Shown here piece after piece: positions 41,850 to 47,700 of a DNA stretch of 64,000 nucleotides. Both the position numbers and the translations under genes were made by a program. The stretch is taken from contig NZ_BBXC01000013.1 in the NCBI RefSeq assembly GCF_001570525.1, positions 124,001 to 188,000 on the forward strand. Reading direction: 5' to 3'. The notes beneath the pieces are model-generated. The model saw only the letters and a program-made list of their open reading frames with translations, did no database searches and was not told the origin of the DNA. Each line of letters starts with the position of its first letter. The stretch's first letter is position 1. The stretch is from Herbidospora sakaeratensis. GTDB taxonomy: Bacteria > Actinomycetota > Actinomycetes > Streptosporangiales > Streptosporangiaceae.

Positions 41850-43547
41850 TCAGAGCGGCGGATACGCGTTCCGGACGAGCGTCCCGAAGTAGGACGGCCA
41901 GAAGACGCCGTAGGCCGGACCGCCCGGCGTCGCTCCCGACGGCCGGTACGAGCCCATCGGCGGGGCGAACGTGGGGTCGCACCACCGGTTGACGCCGTCG
42001 CTCGCGCCGTCCGACTCGCCGGGCGGCCGGGCCCAGATGAAGGCGTCGACCCCGGCTCTGGGCGCGGCGGCGGGGCGTTCGCCGATGCCCGCGTTGAGCT
42101 GGTTGCACCAGTTGTAGCGGTTGACGCGCCGGTCGAGCCGCGACTGGTCGACGTAGGTGTTGACGTCGGTGGAGACGCTGACGGCGGTCGGCCGGGCGGT
42201 GCCGCCCCAGCCGTTGCGCGAGGTGTCGATCAGCATGCCGATGTCCGCCGGGAGGCCCGCCGCGATGAAGGCGGTGCGCAGGTGGCGCGTGTAGTGGTCC
42301 TCGTCGATGTGCGGGTTCCAGTCGACCCACCGGCTCCAGAGCAGCGGCTGCCCGGCGACCAGCTTCCCGGTGTCCGGGAGGAAGACCTCGTCCACCGGGA
42401 CGTAGTTGGCGACGTTGGTGACGAACCCGTGCACCCCCGGCGTGCCCTCGACGACCTCGGCGAGCACGTCGACCAGCGGCCCGGAGACCTCGGTCCAGCC
42501 GGCCACCGACGACCGGCCGGCGTCGAGGTAGACGTACACGTTGGGGACCAGGCCGAGGGTCGTGACGGCCTGCTTCAGACCTGCGACGTACAGGCCCGAC
42601 GTGCGCGCCTCCACGCACTGGGTCTCCTGCGGCCAGCTGACCATGCTGCCGACGGTCTCCGGCTCGACGAGCGTGACGATCCTGAGCTGGGCGTAGCGCG
42701 GGTCGGCCAGGATGGCCGCGATGGGGTCGAGGAACTGGTTCCTGTACGCCGTCACGCCGTCGGCGCTCAGGGGGAACTCCGCCGTGGGCCACCACGACGA
42801 ACACTCCTTGCCCGGCAGGTCGCTCAGCACGAGCGTCACGACGACGGGGTCGTCGTTCCCCTGCGACAACGCCTGGACGCGCGCCCGCTCCAGATGTTGC
42901 CGCAACCCCATGCCGCCCCTGATCGACCCGATCGCCGCCACGGAGTCGAGCCACAGGGCGGTCGGCTGGAACGCGACCTTCCGCATCGCGGCGCCGACCT
43001 CCCCGCCCGTGGCGGTGGCGGCGGCCTCGACGTTCGCGACGTACTCGGGGTTCAGGTAGCCGCGTGCGCCGAGGTAGGGATTGTCGACCCGCGACGGACT
43101 CGGGGAAGGACTCGGGCTCGGCGAAGGTGACGGGCTCGGACTCGGCGAGGGGCTCGGTGACGGCGGGCCGCCGCAGGTGGTGCCGTTCAGGGTGAAGCGC
43201 GTCGGCGCGGGGTTGGCGCCGGTCCAGCTGCCGTTGAAGCCGATGGTCACCGTCGCGCCCGGTGCGATCACCCGGTTGTGCGGCTCGTTCACCGCCTCGA
43301 CCCGCGCCCCCGACTGGCTCCACCGCGCCGACCAGCCGTGCGTGACCGTCTGCCCGGCGGTGAAGTCGAACCGCAACGTCCAGCCGGTGACCCGATCGCC
43401 GGTGTTCTTGATGGTGACGCCGGCGGTGAACCCGCCCGGCCACGAATTCGCCCCGTACGTCACCACGCATCCCGGAGCGGCCCACGCCACCCCCGGCAGC
43501 ACGACGAACACGAGCAGCACACCGACAAGCACGCGCAGGAGCCTCAT
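41850..43547 (-). CDS. secreted GH6-family glycoside hydrolase with N-terminal CBM2
   Basis: This protein has 565 residues. Signal peptide (MRLLRVLVGVLLVFVVLPG, cleavage near AWA), CBM2 (about 26-128; CVVTYGANSWPGGFTAGVTI, Trp-rich, Cys at both ends), Pro-Ser linker (about 129-154), then the GH6 barrel (PTALWLDSVAAIGSIRGGMG, VYVYLDAGRSSVAGW, FVTNVANY, MLIDTSRNGWGG). GH6 enzymes cut beta-1,4-glucan. At the places where I expect the two active-site Asp (DLPxRDC and EPDS/EIDS) this protein reads DLPGKEC and EPETV, so both carry Glu. Activity as a cellulase is therefore not certain. A minus-strand monooxygenase gene lies upstream. Confidence 0.88.
   Translation of the reverse strand: MRLLRVLVGVLLVFVVLPGVAWAAPGCVVTYGANSWPGGFTAGVTIKNTGDRVTGWTLRFDFTAGQTVTHGWSARWSQSGARVEAVNEPHNRVIAPGATVTIGFNGSWTGANPAPTRFTLNGTTCGGPPSPSPSPSPSPSPSPSPSPSPSPSRVDNPYLGARGYLNPEYVANVEAAATATGGEVGAAMRKVAFQPTALWLDSVAAIGSIRGGMGLRQHLERARVQALSQGNDDPVVVTLVLSDLPGKECSSWWPTAEFPLSADGVTAYRNQFLDPIAAILADPRYAQLRIVTLVEPETVGSMVSWPQETQCVEARTSGLYVAGLKQAVTTLGLVPNVYVYLDAGRSSVAGWTEVSGPLVDVLAEVVEGTPGVHGFVTNVANYVPVDEVFLPDTGKLVAGQPLLWSRWVDWNPHIDEDHYTRHLRTAFIAAGLPADIGMLIDTSRNGWGGTARPTAVSVSTDVNTYVDQSRLDRRVNRYNWCNQLNAGIGERPAAAPRAGVDAFIWARPPGESDGASDGVNRWCDPTFAPPMGSYRPSGATPGGPAYGVFWPSYFGTLVRNAYPPL
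43085..43168 (-). repeat. Pro-Ser linker-coding repeat in the GH6 gene
   Basis: This low-complexity 6-base repeat (minus strand CC-n-TC-n units) encodes alternating Pro-Ser between the CBM2 and catalytic domains. It varies in codon use and is a site for length change by slippage. Confidence 0.7.
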
Positions 43548-43647
43548 GGCATCCCCCAGGACGCGACGACCGACCCCCGAACGTCACCCCAGATGGCCCG
43601 CCCCCGGCAACCCGGCCCGGCGAATCCCCAGGTCGGCCCTGAACCTT

Positions 43648-44796
43648 TCAGGCGTCCTCCCAGGCGATGCGGTGGTCGTACATCCAGTTGAGGGACCCGC
43701 GCCTGGCCACCTGCCGCAGCACCACCGGCAGGAAGAGGTCGCGCAGGTAGGCCCCGACCGGGCCGGGCGCCTTGCCGTCGCCGTTGCGTTTGCCCTGGGC
43801 GACGATGCGCTCCACCCGCCCCCGGCGCAGCCGTTCGTAGGCGGCGAACGCCTCCGGCGTCTCGTGGTCGCGCAGGCACGTGGCCAGCACGACCGCGTCC
43901 TCGATCGCCATCGACGCCCCCTGCCCGGATGACGGTGAGGTCGCGTGGGCGGCGTCGCCGACGATCACCATGTGGGAGTTCGACCAGGTGGGAACCGTCG
44001 GCAGGTCGTAGGTGTTCCAGGCCGGCAACACGTGGGGCGTGGCCGCGATGATGTCGCGCATCGGCCCGGCGTCGTCGCGGAACAGCTCGATGAGCGCCGC
44101 CGGGGTGACGGCCGCCAGGTCGTCGGCCGTGGGCTCCTTCGGGCTGGCCGGGTTGGCGAACCACCAGACCCCGCCGTCGGGGTGGACGAGATAGCCGAAG
44201 AAGCACCGCCGGCCGAAGACGAAGTGGCTGACGCCGGGCCGTCCCGGCACGCGTATGCCTTCGGCGAACCCGCCCGTGTTGAGCAGCCCGAGGTGCCGGG
44301 GCCGGGGCGCGCCGGGGTCGATGATCGTCCGGGTCCGCGACCAGAGTCCGTCCGCGCCGACGAGCAGCGCGCCGTCCGCCGTGGTCCCGTCTTCGAACCG
44401 GGCCTGTACGCCGCCGCCGGCGACCCCCGCGCCGGTCAGCCGTTTGCCGTACTCGACGGTGACCCCCCGCCGGACCGCCTCGTCGCGGAGCGCCCGGTAG
44501 AGGTCGCCCCGCCGGAGAGTGCGGCTCGGTTGCGGGATGACGGCCAGTTCGCGGCCCTTGGCGTTGACCATCACCCCCTCGGGGGTGTCCATGCCGAGAT
44601 CGGCCACGAGGTCGTGCAGGCCGAGGACCCGCAGCGCCTCCAGCCCGTTCCGCGCCAGGGTCAGGAACGCCCCGACGCCGTCGGAACCCCGGTCGTACGC
44701 CTCGAAGAGCCGGACGCCGAGCCCGGCCTTCCGGAGTGCCATGGCCGTGACCGGCCCCGCGATGCCGCCACCGATGATCAACGTTTCCTTGGTCAT
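43648..44796 (-). CDS. FAD-dependent aromatic monooxygenase-like protein
   Basis: This protein has 382 residues. It has the FAD fold TLIIGGGIAGPVTAMALRKA, the DG motif LVGADGLWSRTRTII and the second FAD motif IVGDAAHATSPSSGQGASMA, the group-A flavin hydroxylase layout (PHBH/TetX-like). It is divergent from a PadR regulator, a pairing often used to detoxify a phenolic or antibiotic compound. The ATG at 44796 lies inside a palindrome, and a -10 TATAGT ends six bases before it, so the mRNA may be leaderless. The substrate is unknown. Confidence 0.88.
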   Translation of the reverse strand: MTKETLIIGGGIAGPVTAMALRKAGLGVRLFEAYDRGSDGVGAFLTLARNGLEALRVLGLHDLVADLGMDTPEGVMVNAKGRELAVIPQPSRTLRRGDLYRALRDEAVRRGVTVEYGKRLTGAGVAGGGVQARFEDGTTADGALLVGADGLWSRTRTIIDPGAPRPRHLGLLNTGGFAEGIRVPGRPGVSHFVFGRRCFFGYLVHPDGGVWWFANPASPKEPTADDLAAVTPAALIELFRDDAGPMRDIIAATPHVLPAWNTYDLPTVPTWSNSHMVIVGDAAHATSPSSGQGASMAIEDAVVLATCLRDHETPEAFAAYERLRRGRVERIVAQGKRNGDGKAPGPVGAYLRDLFLPVVLRQVARRGSLNWMYDHRIAWEDA

Positions 44797-45428: not shown

Positions 45429-46667
45429 ATGGCACACCAACAGCGGCAACCGGTGATCGTGGTCGGCGCGGGGCTGGCCGGGCTGGCCTGCGCGGTGCGG
45501 CTGCGCCGCTCGGGCGTCCCGGTCACCGTGCTGGAGGCCTCCGACGGGGTGGGCGGCCGGATGCGCACCGACGTCGTCGACGGCTTCCGCCTCGACCGGG
45601 GCTTCCAGGTGCTGAACACCGGCTACCCCGAGGTGCCCCGCGTGCTGGACGTCGAGGCGCTGCGGCTGCGCGCCTTCAACTCCGGCATGCTGGTCTTCCG
45701 CTCCGGCGGCGGCAGGGAGAGGGTCATGCTGCCGTGGAGACATCCGCAGTACGCCCTCACCGGCCTGACCGCCGGCCTCGGCACCCTGGCCGACAAGGCG
45801 GTCCTGGCCGCCATGACCACCCGCGACCTGGCCTTCCCCGCCTCGGCGTTGCGCGCGGGGGCCGAGCGCACCGTCCTCGACGAGCTCAGGCACTGGGGCA
45901 TGTCACCGGTGATGGTCGAGCGGCTGATCCGCCCGTTCCTGGCGGGCGTGCTGCTGGAGCGGGAGCTGGAGACCTCCAGCAGGGTCTTCCACCTGATCTG
46001 GCGGTCGTTCGCGCGCGGCACCATCGGCGTGCCGGCATTGGGCATGGGCGAGGCCCCGGCGCAGCTGGCGAGCCGGCTGCCCGACGGGGCCCTGCGCCTG
46101 GAGTGCCCGGTGCGGTCGGTCGGCGGCGCGGGCGTGGTCCTGGACGACGGCGCGGAGTTGCCGGCCGCCGCCGTCGTGGTGGCGACCGACCCGGGCGCCG
46201 CCGCGACGTTGCTGCCCGACGTGACGGCGCCCGCCATGCGGGCCGTGACCACCTTCTACCACGCGGCCCCCCGGTCCCCGCTCGGGGAGGCCACGCAGGT
46301 GATCGACGGCGACGGAGTCCTGGCCGACACGCTGGTCATGACCGACGCGGCCCCCGAGTACAGCGCCACGGGTGAGGCGCTGATCTCCACGTCGGTGCTG
46401 GGCGTGCTGGGCGACGACGACGAACCGCGGGTGCGCGACCGCCTGGAGGAGATCTACGGCTCCGAGGTCCGGGGCTGGCGTCACCTGGCGTCCTACCCGA
46501 TCCCGGAGGCGTTGCCGGCGATGCCGCCGCCCATGCCGTTGCGCCGCCGGGTGCGTCTGAAGGACGGGCTCTACGTCTGCGGCGACCACCGGGACACCGG
46601 GTCGATCCAGGGGGCGCTGGTGTCCGGGCGGCGGGCGGCCGACGCGGTTCTGCACGACCTCAGCTGA
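45429..46667 (+). CDS. FAD-dependent amine oxidase/phytoene-desaturase-like oxidoreductase
   Basis: This protein has 412 residues. The N-terminal dinucleotide fold VIVVGAGLAGLACAVRLRRS is followed by VLEASDGVGGRMRTDVVDGF, the NAD(P)-binding amine-oxidase signature. The C-terminal FAD end is KDGLYVCGDHRDTGSIQGAL. It lies 28 bases after the PadR gene and may share its transcript. The substrate is unknown; a single gene with no carotenoid context argues against a carotenoid desaturase. Confidence 0.87.
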   Translation: MAHQQRQPVIVVGAGLAGLACAVRLRRSGVPVTVLEASDGVGGRMRTDVVDGFRLDRGFQVLNTGYPEVPRVLDVEALRLRAFNSGMLVFRSGGGRERVMLPWRHPQYALTGLTAGLGTLADKAVLAAMTTRDLAFPASALRAGAERTVLDELRHWGMSPVMVERLIRPFLAGVLLERELETSSRVFHLIWRSFARGTIGVPALGMGEAPAQLASRLPDGALRLECPVRSVGGAGVVLDDGAELPAAAVVVATDPGAAATLLPDVTAPAMRAVTTFYHAAPRSPLGEATQVIDGDGVLADTLVMTDAAPEYSATGEALISTSVLGVLGDDDEPRVRDRLEEIYGSEVRGWRHLASYPIPEALPAMPPPMPLRRRVRLKDGLYVCGDHRDTGSIQGALVSGRRAADAVLHDLS

Positions 46668-47700
46668 GGTAGATGGGCACGTGCGTCCACGACGACTGGC
46701 CGTGGACGTTGCGGTAGTACTTGATCGCGTGGTTGTAGCGCATGCGCGCCGCTATGTGGCTGGCGGTCGCGTCGCGGCTGAACGACGGGTTGCCCACGAT
46801 GCCGCCCCACTCGACCAGCGTCTTGGTCCACGACCCCGTGGCGTTGGGCTTCCACCAGAAGTGGACCTCGCCGCTGGGGGACTGGGCGACGATCGACGAC
46901 GTGGCGCCGTCGTTGGCGAGTTGCGGATCGGCCGCGCCGAGCGTGCCGCCCGGGCTCACCGGGGTCGCCGGCCAGCCGGACGTGCCGTGGACGTTGCGCA
47001 GGTAGGTCAGCCCGTTGTTCCAGTCGCGGAAGGCGATGGCGGTGCTCGTGGCGTCCCGGGCGATCGACGGGTCGGACAGGACGCTGCCCGGCTGCGCGAC
47101 CAGCTCACCCGCCCAGCCGTTCGCGCCGTCGGCCTTCCAGAAGTAGTACATGCTGTTCGCCTCTCCCCGGGCCGCGATCACCGTGGTCGTGCCGTGGCGG
47201 GCCATGGAGGGGCTGCCGACGATGAGCACCGGGCTGACCAGCTGGGGGACCCAGACCGGGTTGCCGTGCGTGGCGGTGTAGGAGTACAGCTGGCCCTGGA
47301 TGTCGACGGCGGTGATGACCGTCTTGGCGCCGTCGCGGACGATGGCGGGAGCGCCGACGACGGTGCCGGGCCCGGCGGCCTGCTGGGCGGTCCACGTCGG
47401 GTCGCCGTGCAGGTTCCAGTAGAAGGTCAGGCTGTTGCTCGGCCCCTGGACGGCGATGCCGCTGCCCGCCGCGTCGCGGGCCAGGGCGGGGTCGGAGTAG
47501 GCGTTCGGGCCGGGCAGCACTTGCCGGCTCCACGCTCCGACGGGGGAGCCGTTGAGGTTGTAGGCGAAGTGGACGCCGGTGCCCTCGCGGAAGGCCAGCG
47601 AGGTGGCGCCGGAGCCCCGGGTCACCGGGACCGGCGGCGCGGCGAGCGCGGGGCTCGCACTAAGGATCACCAGGATCATGGCCAGCAGCAGTCGTCGCAC
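46660..47700 (-). CDS. secreted seven-repeat beta-propeller protein
   Basis: This protein has 346 residues. Signal peptide (MRRLLLAMILVILSASPALA), then seven repeats of about 46 residues, each opening like DPALARDAAGSGIAV, DPSIARDATSTAIAFRD or NPSFSRDATASHIAARM and containing aromatic pairs (FYWNLHG, YYFWKADG, KYYRNVHG). The count suggests a seven-bladed propeller, possibly a sugar-binding lectin of the PLL type (as recalled); the ligand is unknown. It ends convergently with the FAD gene, overlapping by eight bases. Confidence 0.82.
   Translation of the reverse strand: MRRLLLAMILVILSASPALAAPPVPVTRGSGATSLAFREGTGVHFAYNLNGSPVGAWSRQVLPGPNAYSDPALARDAAGSGIAVQGPSNSLTFYWNLHGDPTWTAQQAAGPGTVVGAPAIVRDGAKTVITAVDIQGQLYSYTATHGNPVWVPQLVSPVLIVGSPSMARHGTTTVIAARGEANSMYYFWKADGANGWAGELVAQPGSVLSDPSIARDATSTAIAFRDWNNGLTYLRNVHGTSGWPATPVSPGGTLGAADPQLANDGATSSIVAQSPSGEVHFWWKPNATGSWTKTLVEWGGIVGNPSFSRDATASHIAARMRYNHAIKYYRNVHGQSSWTHVPIYLS

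Follow-up and report, generated by a model that had tools for sequence, protein, structure and literature searches.

The window, a stretch of 64,000 nucleotides of Herbidospora sakaeratensis DNA, carries on its minus strand a gene for a protein with a GH6-like domain. The parts of the gene are listed by position in the window.

41850..43547, minus strand: entire gene (565 aa), encoding a signal peptide, CBM2, PSP linker and GH6-like domain in that order (single open frame and Pfam)
43476..43547, minus strand: N-terminal hydrophobic signal peptide, residues 1-24 (judged by eye)
43173..43469, minus strand: CBM2, residues 27-125 (Pfam)
43089..43169, minus strand: Gly/Pro/Ser linker (translation)
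41850..43088, minus strand: GH6-like domain with exo (Cel6B) type fold (Pfam, alignments and predicted structure)

The protein was assigned to the GH6 sequence family by its Pfam profile match (PF01341 Glyco_hydro_6, E 2.7e-68, 231.5 bits against a cut-off of 27) together with its fold, and the CBM2 was assigned by a match to PF00553 CBM_2 (E 1.8e-29, 102.5 bits). The cellulose face of a CBM2 has three Trp positions, of which the window protein keeps two and has His at the third, and with one of the three missing, cellulose binding is not certain. The predicted structure (pLDDT 81, pTM 0.86, from a shallow alignment of 23 sequences) matched 6k52 with a Foldseek TM of 0.92 and a VIA Z of 48.0, and matched bacterial Cel6 cellobiohydrolases in general with VIA Z of 46-49 and rmsd of 1.9-2.1 over 387-403 residues; a common fold demonstrates no function. 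The neighbouring genes (sigma factor, aldo/keto reductase, MerR, DoxX, HxlR, FAD monooxygenase, PadR and amine oxidase) were discarded as a clue to function, as they suggest no link to cellulose and differ between species. Elsewhere in the window, the minus strand at 46660-47700 probably encodes a secreted protein whose one match, to the beta-propeller family PF13570, is weak and scores under the cut-off.

Six named Herbidospora records match the protein at 81-90% identity, and the gene was found intact in all seven Herbidospora genomes. The nearest relatives outside the genus were located in two of the five genomes of genus g28 and in the sole genome of g51, and the seven Herbidospora and three outgroup sequences form one clade (clade A) with support of 100/100. 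No further member was detected at E<=1e-109 in the order (345 genomes) or in the class (394 genomes, a sample). The third position of the CBM2 face is Tyr or Thr in the other clade A members.

Residue-level phmmer alignments of the window protein were made against HmCel6A (6k52), C. fimi Cel6B (7cbd) and CbsA (5xyh). TrCel6A residue numbers were mapped onto the window protein via HmCel6A and known motif positions. The positions at issue are as follows.

42942..42944, minus strand: Ser202 for Arg (HmCel6A R50); Ser in 10/10 clade members
42822..42824, minus strand: Ser242 for the -1 subsite Tyr (TrCel6A Y169); Ser/Asn in 10/10 clade members
42804..42806, minus strand: Glu248 (GAG) at the TrCel6A D175 site, the base through a water wire; Glu in 2/7 and Asp in 5/7 Herbidospora
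42786..42788, minus strand: Pro254 for the water-holding Ser (TrCel6A S181); altered in 5/10 clade members
42657..42659, minus strand: Glu297 (GAG) at the catalytic acid site (TrCel6A D221, HmCel6A D140); clade E7/G2/N1
42522..42524, minus strand: Asp342 (TrCel6A D263); Asp in 128/128 domains
42513..42515, minus strand: Arg345 for His (TrCel6A H266); Arg in 10/10 clade members
42504..42506, minus strand: Val348 for a tunnel Trp (HmCel6A W189, TrCel6A W269), from the alignment
42009..42011, minus strand: Asp513 (TrCel6A D401); Asp in 128/128 domains
41988..42008, minus strand: bottom (tunnel) loop, lacking 11 columns relative to HmCel6A in 7/7 Herbidospora

The first-pass annotation had read the motifs DLPGKEC, EPETV and YLDAGR, all of which are present in the minus-strand frame at 41850-43547, and had placed Glu at both key Asp positions of GH6, which the alignments bear out: E248 falls at the TrCel6A D175 site and E297 at that of the catalytic acid D221. 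In the comparison with characterised enzymes, E248 pairs with the Asp of RDC and E297 with that of EPDS, and neither position adjoins a gap, so the true catalytic Asp residues do not lie elsewhere, which is what would have refuted that annotation. An alignment artefact or a sequencing error, by which Glu would not truly occupy the Asp sites, deserves mention since at six other loci the pairwise alignment was displaced around the acid and the risk of misalignment is thus real. For clade A the probability of such an error is negligible, as no gap lies beside the sites in the alignment to solved structures, two aligners agree, and the same acid-site GAG is found in seven assemblies.

The chemistry expected at these sites is described in PMC6091422, according to which D221 protonates the leaving group, D175 can accept the proton of the nucleophilic water via a bridging water, and S181 helps to hold that water. 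The same source reports that TfCel6A D79E, an Asp to Glu change at the D175 site, was about as poor as D79A, two to three orders below wild type; that the activity of CfCel6A D216E was also reduced; and that TrCel6A D175A had 2-3% of its activity left, so that low activity could remain here. Among the residues required of a catalytic GH6 cellulase, the window protein lacks the Asp acid, the D175-site Asp, the -1 Tyr, the water-holding Ser and His266, and it has the Asp residues of the D263 and D401 sites as Asp342 and Asp513; Trp199 and Trp480 are also retained. An exo-type GH6 is expected to have long active-site and bottom loops that build the tunnel, and the window protein departs from this in its short bottom loop, for which a role in tunnel formation has been described (PMC8940973); in the outgroup members (L032-L034) this loop is nearly complete, one column shorter than in HmCel6A. 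With Glu in place of both D175 and D221, Pro in place of S181, the -1 Tyr missing and His exchanged for Arg, the window protein would be expected, judging by these residues, to give very poor or nil hydrolysis.

Across clade A (n=10), Tyr169 is replaced by Ser (eight) or Asn (two), the acid by Glu (seven), Gly (two) or Asn (one), and Trp269 by Val (seven), Leu (two) or Ser (one), while Arg174 is Lys, Ser222 is Thr, His266 is Arg and the HmCel6A R50 site is Ser in all ten. Ser181 is altered in five members and D175 in three, Lys395 is Arg in seven, and Asp263, Glu399 and Asp401 are retained in 10/10. Eighteen columns, including Arg345, Ser202 and Thr298, are diagnostic of the clade, which consequently also has constraints of its own. 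E297 is found in all seven Herbidospora orthologs. E248 is confined to two, from the window species and from H. galbida, which do not pair as sisters in the tree, and Asp (codon GAC) stands at that site in the remaining five. In the three sequences from g28 and g51 the acid is Gly, Gly and Asn, and the D175 site is Asp, Gly and Asp. A fixed Glu/Glu pair was for these reasons rejected as the mark of the group, and the presence of Glu, Gly and Asn at the acid site across three genera is a mark of released constraint. Within Herbidospora, 282/411 positions are invariant, and 14 of 114 GH6 columns that are otherwise invariant vary, nine of them within residues 242-256 and 299-305, the stretches that surround the catalytic residues.

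The first-pass annotation had proposed, from paired conservative swaps, a distinct GH6 subgroup that was either altered in mechanism or specificity or non-catalytic. The distinctness stands, given the 100/100 clade, and non-catalytic is the better supported of the options offered. The swaps proved not to be paired, since Glu at the D175 site is a species-level variant (2/7 orthologs) and the acid site varies among E, G and N in the clade, and they are accompanied by non-conservative changes (Y169 to Ser/Asn, S181 to Pro in the window protein, W269 to Val, R50 to Ser) and by the shorter tunnel loop. An active glycosidase of altered chemistry or substrate would use E297 as general acid and E248 (Asp in sister species) as base, with Arg345 and the open cleft suited to mixed-linkage or branched beta-glucan. 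Such an enzyme gains some credit from the facts that Glu is able to serve as a general acid and is invariant here in 7/7 Herbidospora, that the D263, D401 and E399 sites are kept in 10/10 clade A members, that the short bottom loop would open the tunnel, and that the gene is under purifying selection. We regard it as unlikely, since sister genera that also have Arg345, Ser202 and Thr298 carry Gly or Asn as the acid, the -1 Tyr is lost and the water-holding Ser partly lost, and the D175 site varies within Herbidospora.

Selection was estimated from pairwise omega. Over the 21 Herbidospora pairs the mean was 0.305 (range 0.183-0.423), and the value was 0.333 for the clade A gene in the same four species as two sets of canonical paralogs, which gave 0.172 and 0.193 (six pairs each, grouped by hand, with orthology unproven). 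Selection on the clade A gene is thus relaxed but still purifying. With catalytic residues lost, the fold conserved and purifying selection acting, the window protein would qualify as a pseudoenzyme on the strength of its sequence and model. That the gene is a functionless pseudogene in slow loss is improbable. An omega about 1.6-1.8 times that of the canonical paralogs and the state of one relative, in genome G033, would suit such decay; the gene is, however, intact in 7/7 Herbidospora with omega of 0.18-0.42, the invariant positions number 282/411 as given above, and about 100 bp of leader are conserved although the upstream neighbour is common to only 2/6 other species. The G033 relative itself (L033/L069), a member of clade A, has an in-frame TAG in its GH6 domain and no detected CBM2 and is a probable pseudogene.

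The extent of such changes was surveyed in the same bacterial family. The survey loci were drawn from the matches listed to the window protein in 297 family genomes and in genus searches, and they do not form a random sample; the 132 loci yielded 128 distinct usable GH6 domains, which were aligned with MAFFT. Asp was found at the acid site in 108/128 domains and at the D175 site in 118/128, and Glu at both sites in 2/128, the window protein and its H. galbida ortholog. Departures at conserved catalytic-site residues were seen in 27/128 domains among these matches, and the domains fell into groups A-D and 101 canonical rows, the latter defined as every row outside those groups. Groups A-D were first spotted at Tyr169, D175, the acid and His266, so the conservation of those four in the canonical rows is partly by construction. 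Sites that were not used for sorting are nevertheless conserved in 101/101 canonical rows (Arg174, Ser181, Glu219, Ser222, Asp263, Trp269, Trp272, Lys395, Glu399 and Asp401), and two of them, W269 and R174, are altered in 10/10 clade A members. With 125 columns invariant in 31 canonical rows as the base, 5/16 active-site columns against 9/109 others were altered in all ten clade A members (Fisher p 0.018), a test that was not blind; the active-site column list was derived from the literature, but the residues at those sites had been viewed beforehand. A seemingly larger acid-less set (L110, L140, L147, L149, L150 and L152) was dismissed, the apparent Asn being a tblastn shift and the motif EIDS; on the MAFFT recount these loci fall among the canonical rows.

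Three further lineages depart from the canonical pattern. Lineage D comprises nine domains (L080, L084, L085, L114, L115, L121, L141, L143 and L155) in which the acid is Arg (six), Lys (two) or His (one) and Tyr169 is His in 8/9; an N-terminal CBM2 was present in the four that were checked. Lineage B comprises seven domains (L043, L047, L088, L094, L103, L123 and L126) with the motifs DLPDRNC and EPDF, in which the acid Asp is retained, the D175 site is Asn and the E399 site is Val. Lineage C is one gene (L064 in genome G084) with EPNS, in which both the acid and the His are Asn; G084 also holds a clade A gene and a canonical GH6 gene. An N-terminal CBM2 was recognized in 7/8 checked members of lineages B, C and D and was not found in L043. 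Like clade A, these lineages belong to the same bacterial family and have no exact CebR box upstream (see below); unlike clade A, they have lost other residues. Groups B and D, like A, are each supported at 100/100, and B is nested in the canonical tree apart from A. Groups A and D were joined by FastTree (0.763) and not by IQ-TREE, and an AU test (p 0.456) did not separate the two arrangements. When 384 class genomes were queried with a lineage D sequence, strong hits, at 78-84% identity, were confined to g65, in three of its genomes. The best reading is that clade A is one of several degenerate GH6 lineages in one bacterial family. In genome G000, GH6 matches stand at the end of contig C21 and at both ends of C22: two are canonical and truncated by the contig ends, and another, L002, is found where C22 begins. 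Near-identical GH6 copies may be the cause of the broken assembly.

The upstream regions were compared with respect to the cellulase regulator CebR. In Streptomyces, TGGGAGCGCTCCCA is reported as the CebR site before cellulose-induced genes, and growth on cellulose required a GH6-CBM2 protein (PMC4898821). When the count was limited to distinct domains whose upstream sequence extended over 1200 bp or more, an exact CebR box was present before 83/92 canonical and 0/27 degenerate GH6 genes, although the 27 degenerate loci are kin by descent and a Fisher value for this contrast therefore overstates independence. When reduced to 2-3 independent pairs, the contrast ran in the same direction in nearly all random pairings and never in the opposite one, and the sign test was not significant. 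No match to TGGGAGCGCTCCCA with up to two mismatches was found before any clade A locus, which by this measure places the clade outside the CebR regulon. In lineages B and D the exact box was absent, and the lineage C gene has a CebR-like box with two mismatches. The nine canonical genes without an exact box (L127, L130, L132, L137, L138, L139, L144, L149 and L153) all lie within one subtree of 21 rows and possibly have another operator.

The leader of the clade A gene, about 100 bp before the start codon, is conserved among the seven Herbidospora species, and the upstream neighbour gene is common to only 2/6 of the others. The leader contains the following feature.

43629..43650, minus strand: element TGAAnnnTTCAnnnnYGACSTG, its near end lying 81 bp upstream of the ATG; matched exactly in 9/10 clade loci

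A sigma-70 promoter was not found in this leader. A known RNA element was discounted, as Rfam gave four sub-threshold matches to microRNA families and, at gathering scores, no match anywhere in the window. The pattern used at first, TGAANNGTTCANNNNYGACNTG, occurred exactly at 13 places in ten genomes, namely nine clade GH6 genes, one LPMO gene and three secretory-lipase-like genes, with none for the reversed control; it was not exact at the clade A gene of G056. The pattern was later widened, after LPMO hits had been seen, and then occurred exactly at 18 places, comprising nine clade GH6 genes, five AA10 LPMO-CBM2 genes, three lipase-like genes and one other (L214), where a Pfam scan on guessed coordinates gave nothing. 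At up to one mismatch, the widened pattern gave 82 hits and its reverse one. Each of the seven Herbidospora genomes has one AA10 LPMO-CBM2 gene with the element (five exact and two with one mismatch, by the widened pattern). The lipase-like genes that share it are L189, L194 and L202, the first two assigned by PF03583 and L202 by its likeness to L189, and the element perhaps marks a small regulon of secreted proteins. Outside the clade, TGAANNGTTCANNNNYGACNTG at up to two mismatches gave no hit in lineages B, C and D (2/7 B loci match at three), and at up to three mismatches on either strand it gave a hit in 15 canonical loci. In their leaders the LPMO genes have a CebR-like stretch that differs from the box at three positions by eye count; matches with two mismatches lie farther off, and these genes may therefore still answer to CebR.

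For binding without cutting, the relevant precedent is HmCel6A D140A, which is inactive through mutation of the acid but continues to bind cellohexaose, with an affinity for oligosaccharides almost that of the wild type (PMC8940973), which makes the same behaviour plausible for the window protein. Taken with this precedent, the CBM2 and the loss of the acid, the -1 Tyr and the His lead us to propose that the gene product is a cellulose-binding pseudo-cellobiohydrolase, non-hydrolytic or nearly so; we hold this to be likely, with both the loss of hydrolysis and the binding read from sequence. The residue changes, conservation, purifying selection, predicted fold, absent CebR box and shared element were computed directly, and the following course of events would account for them. 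A copy of a CBM2-GH6 cellobiohydrolase would have lost its proton-transfer machinery (the acid, the -1 Tyr, the His, and in places the Ser and the D175-type Asp) and retained the fold, signal peptide and cellulose-binding module. It stands without a CebR site and with another conserved upstream element, the regulatory change presumably having run in that direction. The CBM2 would anchor the protein on cellulose, and the opened GH6 cleft would keep hold of a glucan chain, or of the end of one, without turning it over, so that the protein might serve as a targeting, chain-loosening or adhesion factor. It would perhaps act with the LPMO-CBM2 whose gene carries the same element. The fuller proposal, that a non-hydrolytic GH6-CBM2 protein is co-controlled with the AA10 LPMO through TGAAnnnTTCAnnnnYGACSTG and aids the LPMO or the hyphae on cellulose, and that catalysis and CebR control were lost in parallel in several lineages, is offered as a tentative possibility.

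The nearest known systems are the bacterial exo-cellobiohydrolases of Cel6B type (T. fusca Cel6B, C. fimi Cel6B, HmCel6A and CbsA), which share the family, the fold and the D263 and D401 sites; the window protein differs from them in the replaced acid Asp, -1 Tyr, His and one tunnel Trp, in the shorter tunnel loop and in the missing CebR box. An N-terminal CBM, as in the window protein, is described for Thermobifida-like exocellulases (PMC3377646). GH6 proteins without the acid Asp are already known from tunicates, in CesA-GH6 and in Salpa SthGH6-1b, the latter with Glu (E197) at that site (PMC7464555); these differ in being eukaryotic, CesA-GH6 being fused to cellulose synthase, and are likened here by description and not by sequence. 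The engineered mutants HmCel6A D140A, TfCel6A D79E and Y73S, and TrCel6A D175A and D221A carry laboratory changes at the same sites, D79E making the exchange that is seen at E248 of the window protein and Y73S the one seen at S242. The clade A changes, unlike these, are natural and combined, and that of the Tyr is conserved over genera. Among the matches listed in open-access literature on inactive or non-catalytic GH6 proteins or Herbidospora cellulases, nothing plainly concerned clade A.

GH6 cellobiohydrolases are among the best-studied cellulases. What appears to be new here, as far as sequence can tell, is a natural pseudoenzyme series in this classic family, in which the loss of catalysis would be coupled with absent cellulase control. 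Mayes et al. ask why evolution has not placed Glu at the D175 site of GH6 enzymes (PMC6091422); Glu exists there naturally, within a lineage whose acid has been lost as well. The natural series of acid-site losses (E, G and N in clade A; R, K and H in lineage D) is useful for studying what a dead cellobiohydrolase does. Counts of GH6 genes made by similarity overstate the number of cellobiohydrolases, given that 27/128 domains depart from the catalytic pattern among the matches listed, a sample that is not random. If the proposed partnership is true, which we consider possible rather than probable, a GH6 domain would have been repurposed in these organisms as a cellulose-chain binding partner of an LPMO or of the hyphae.
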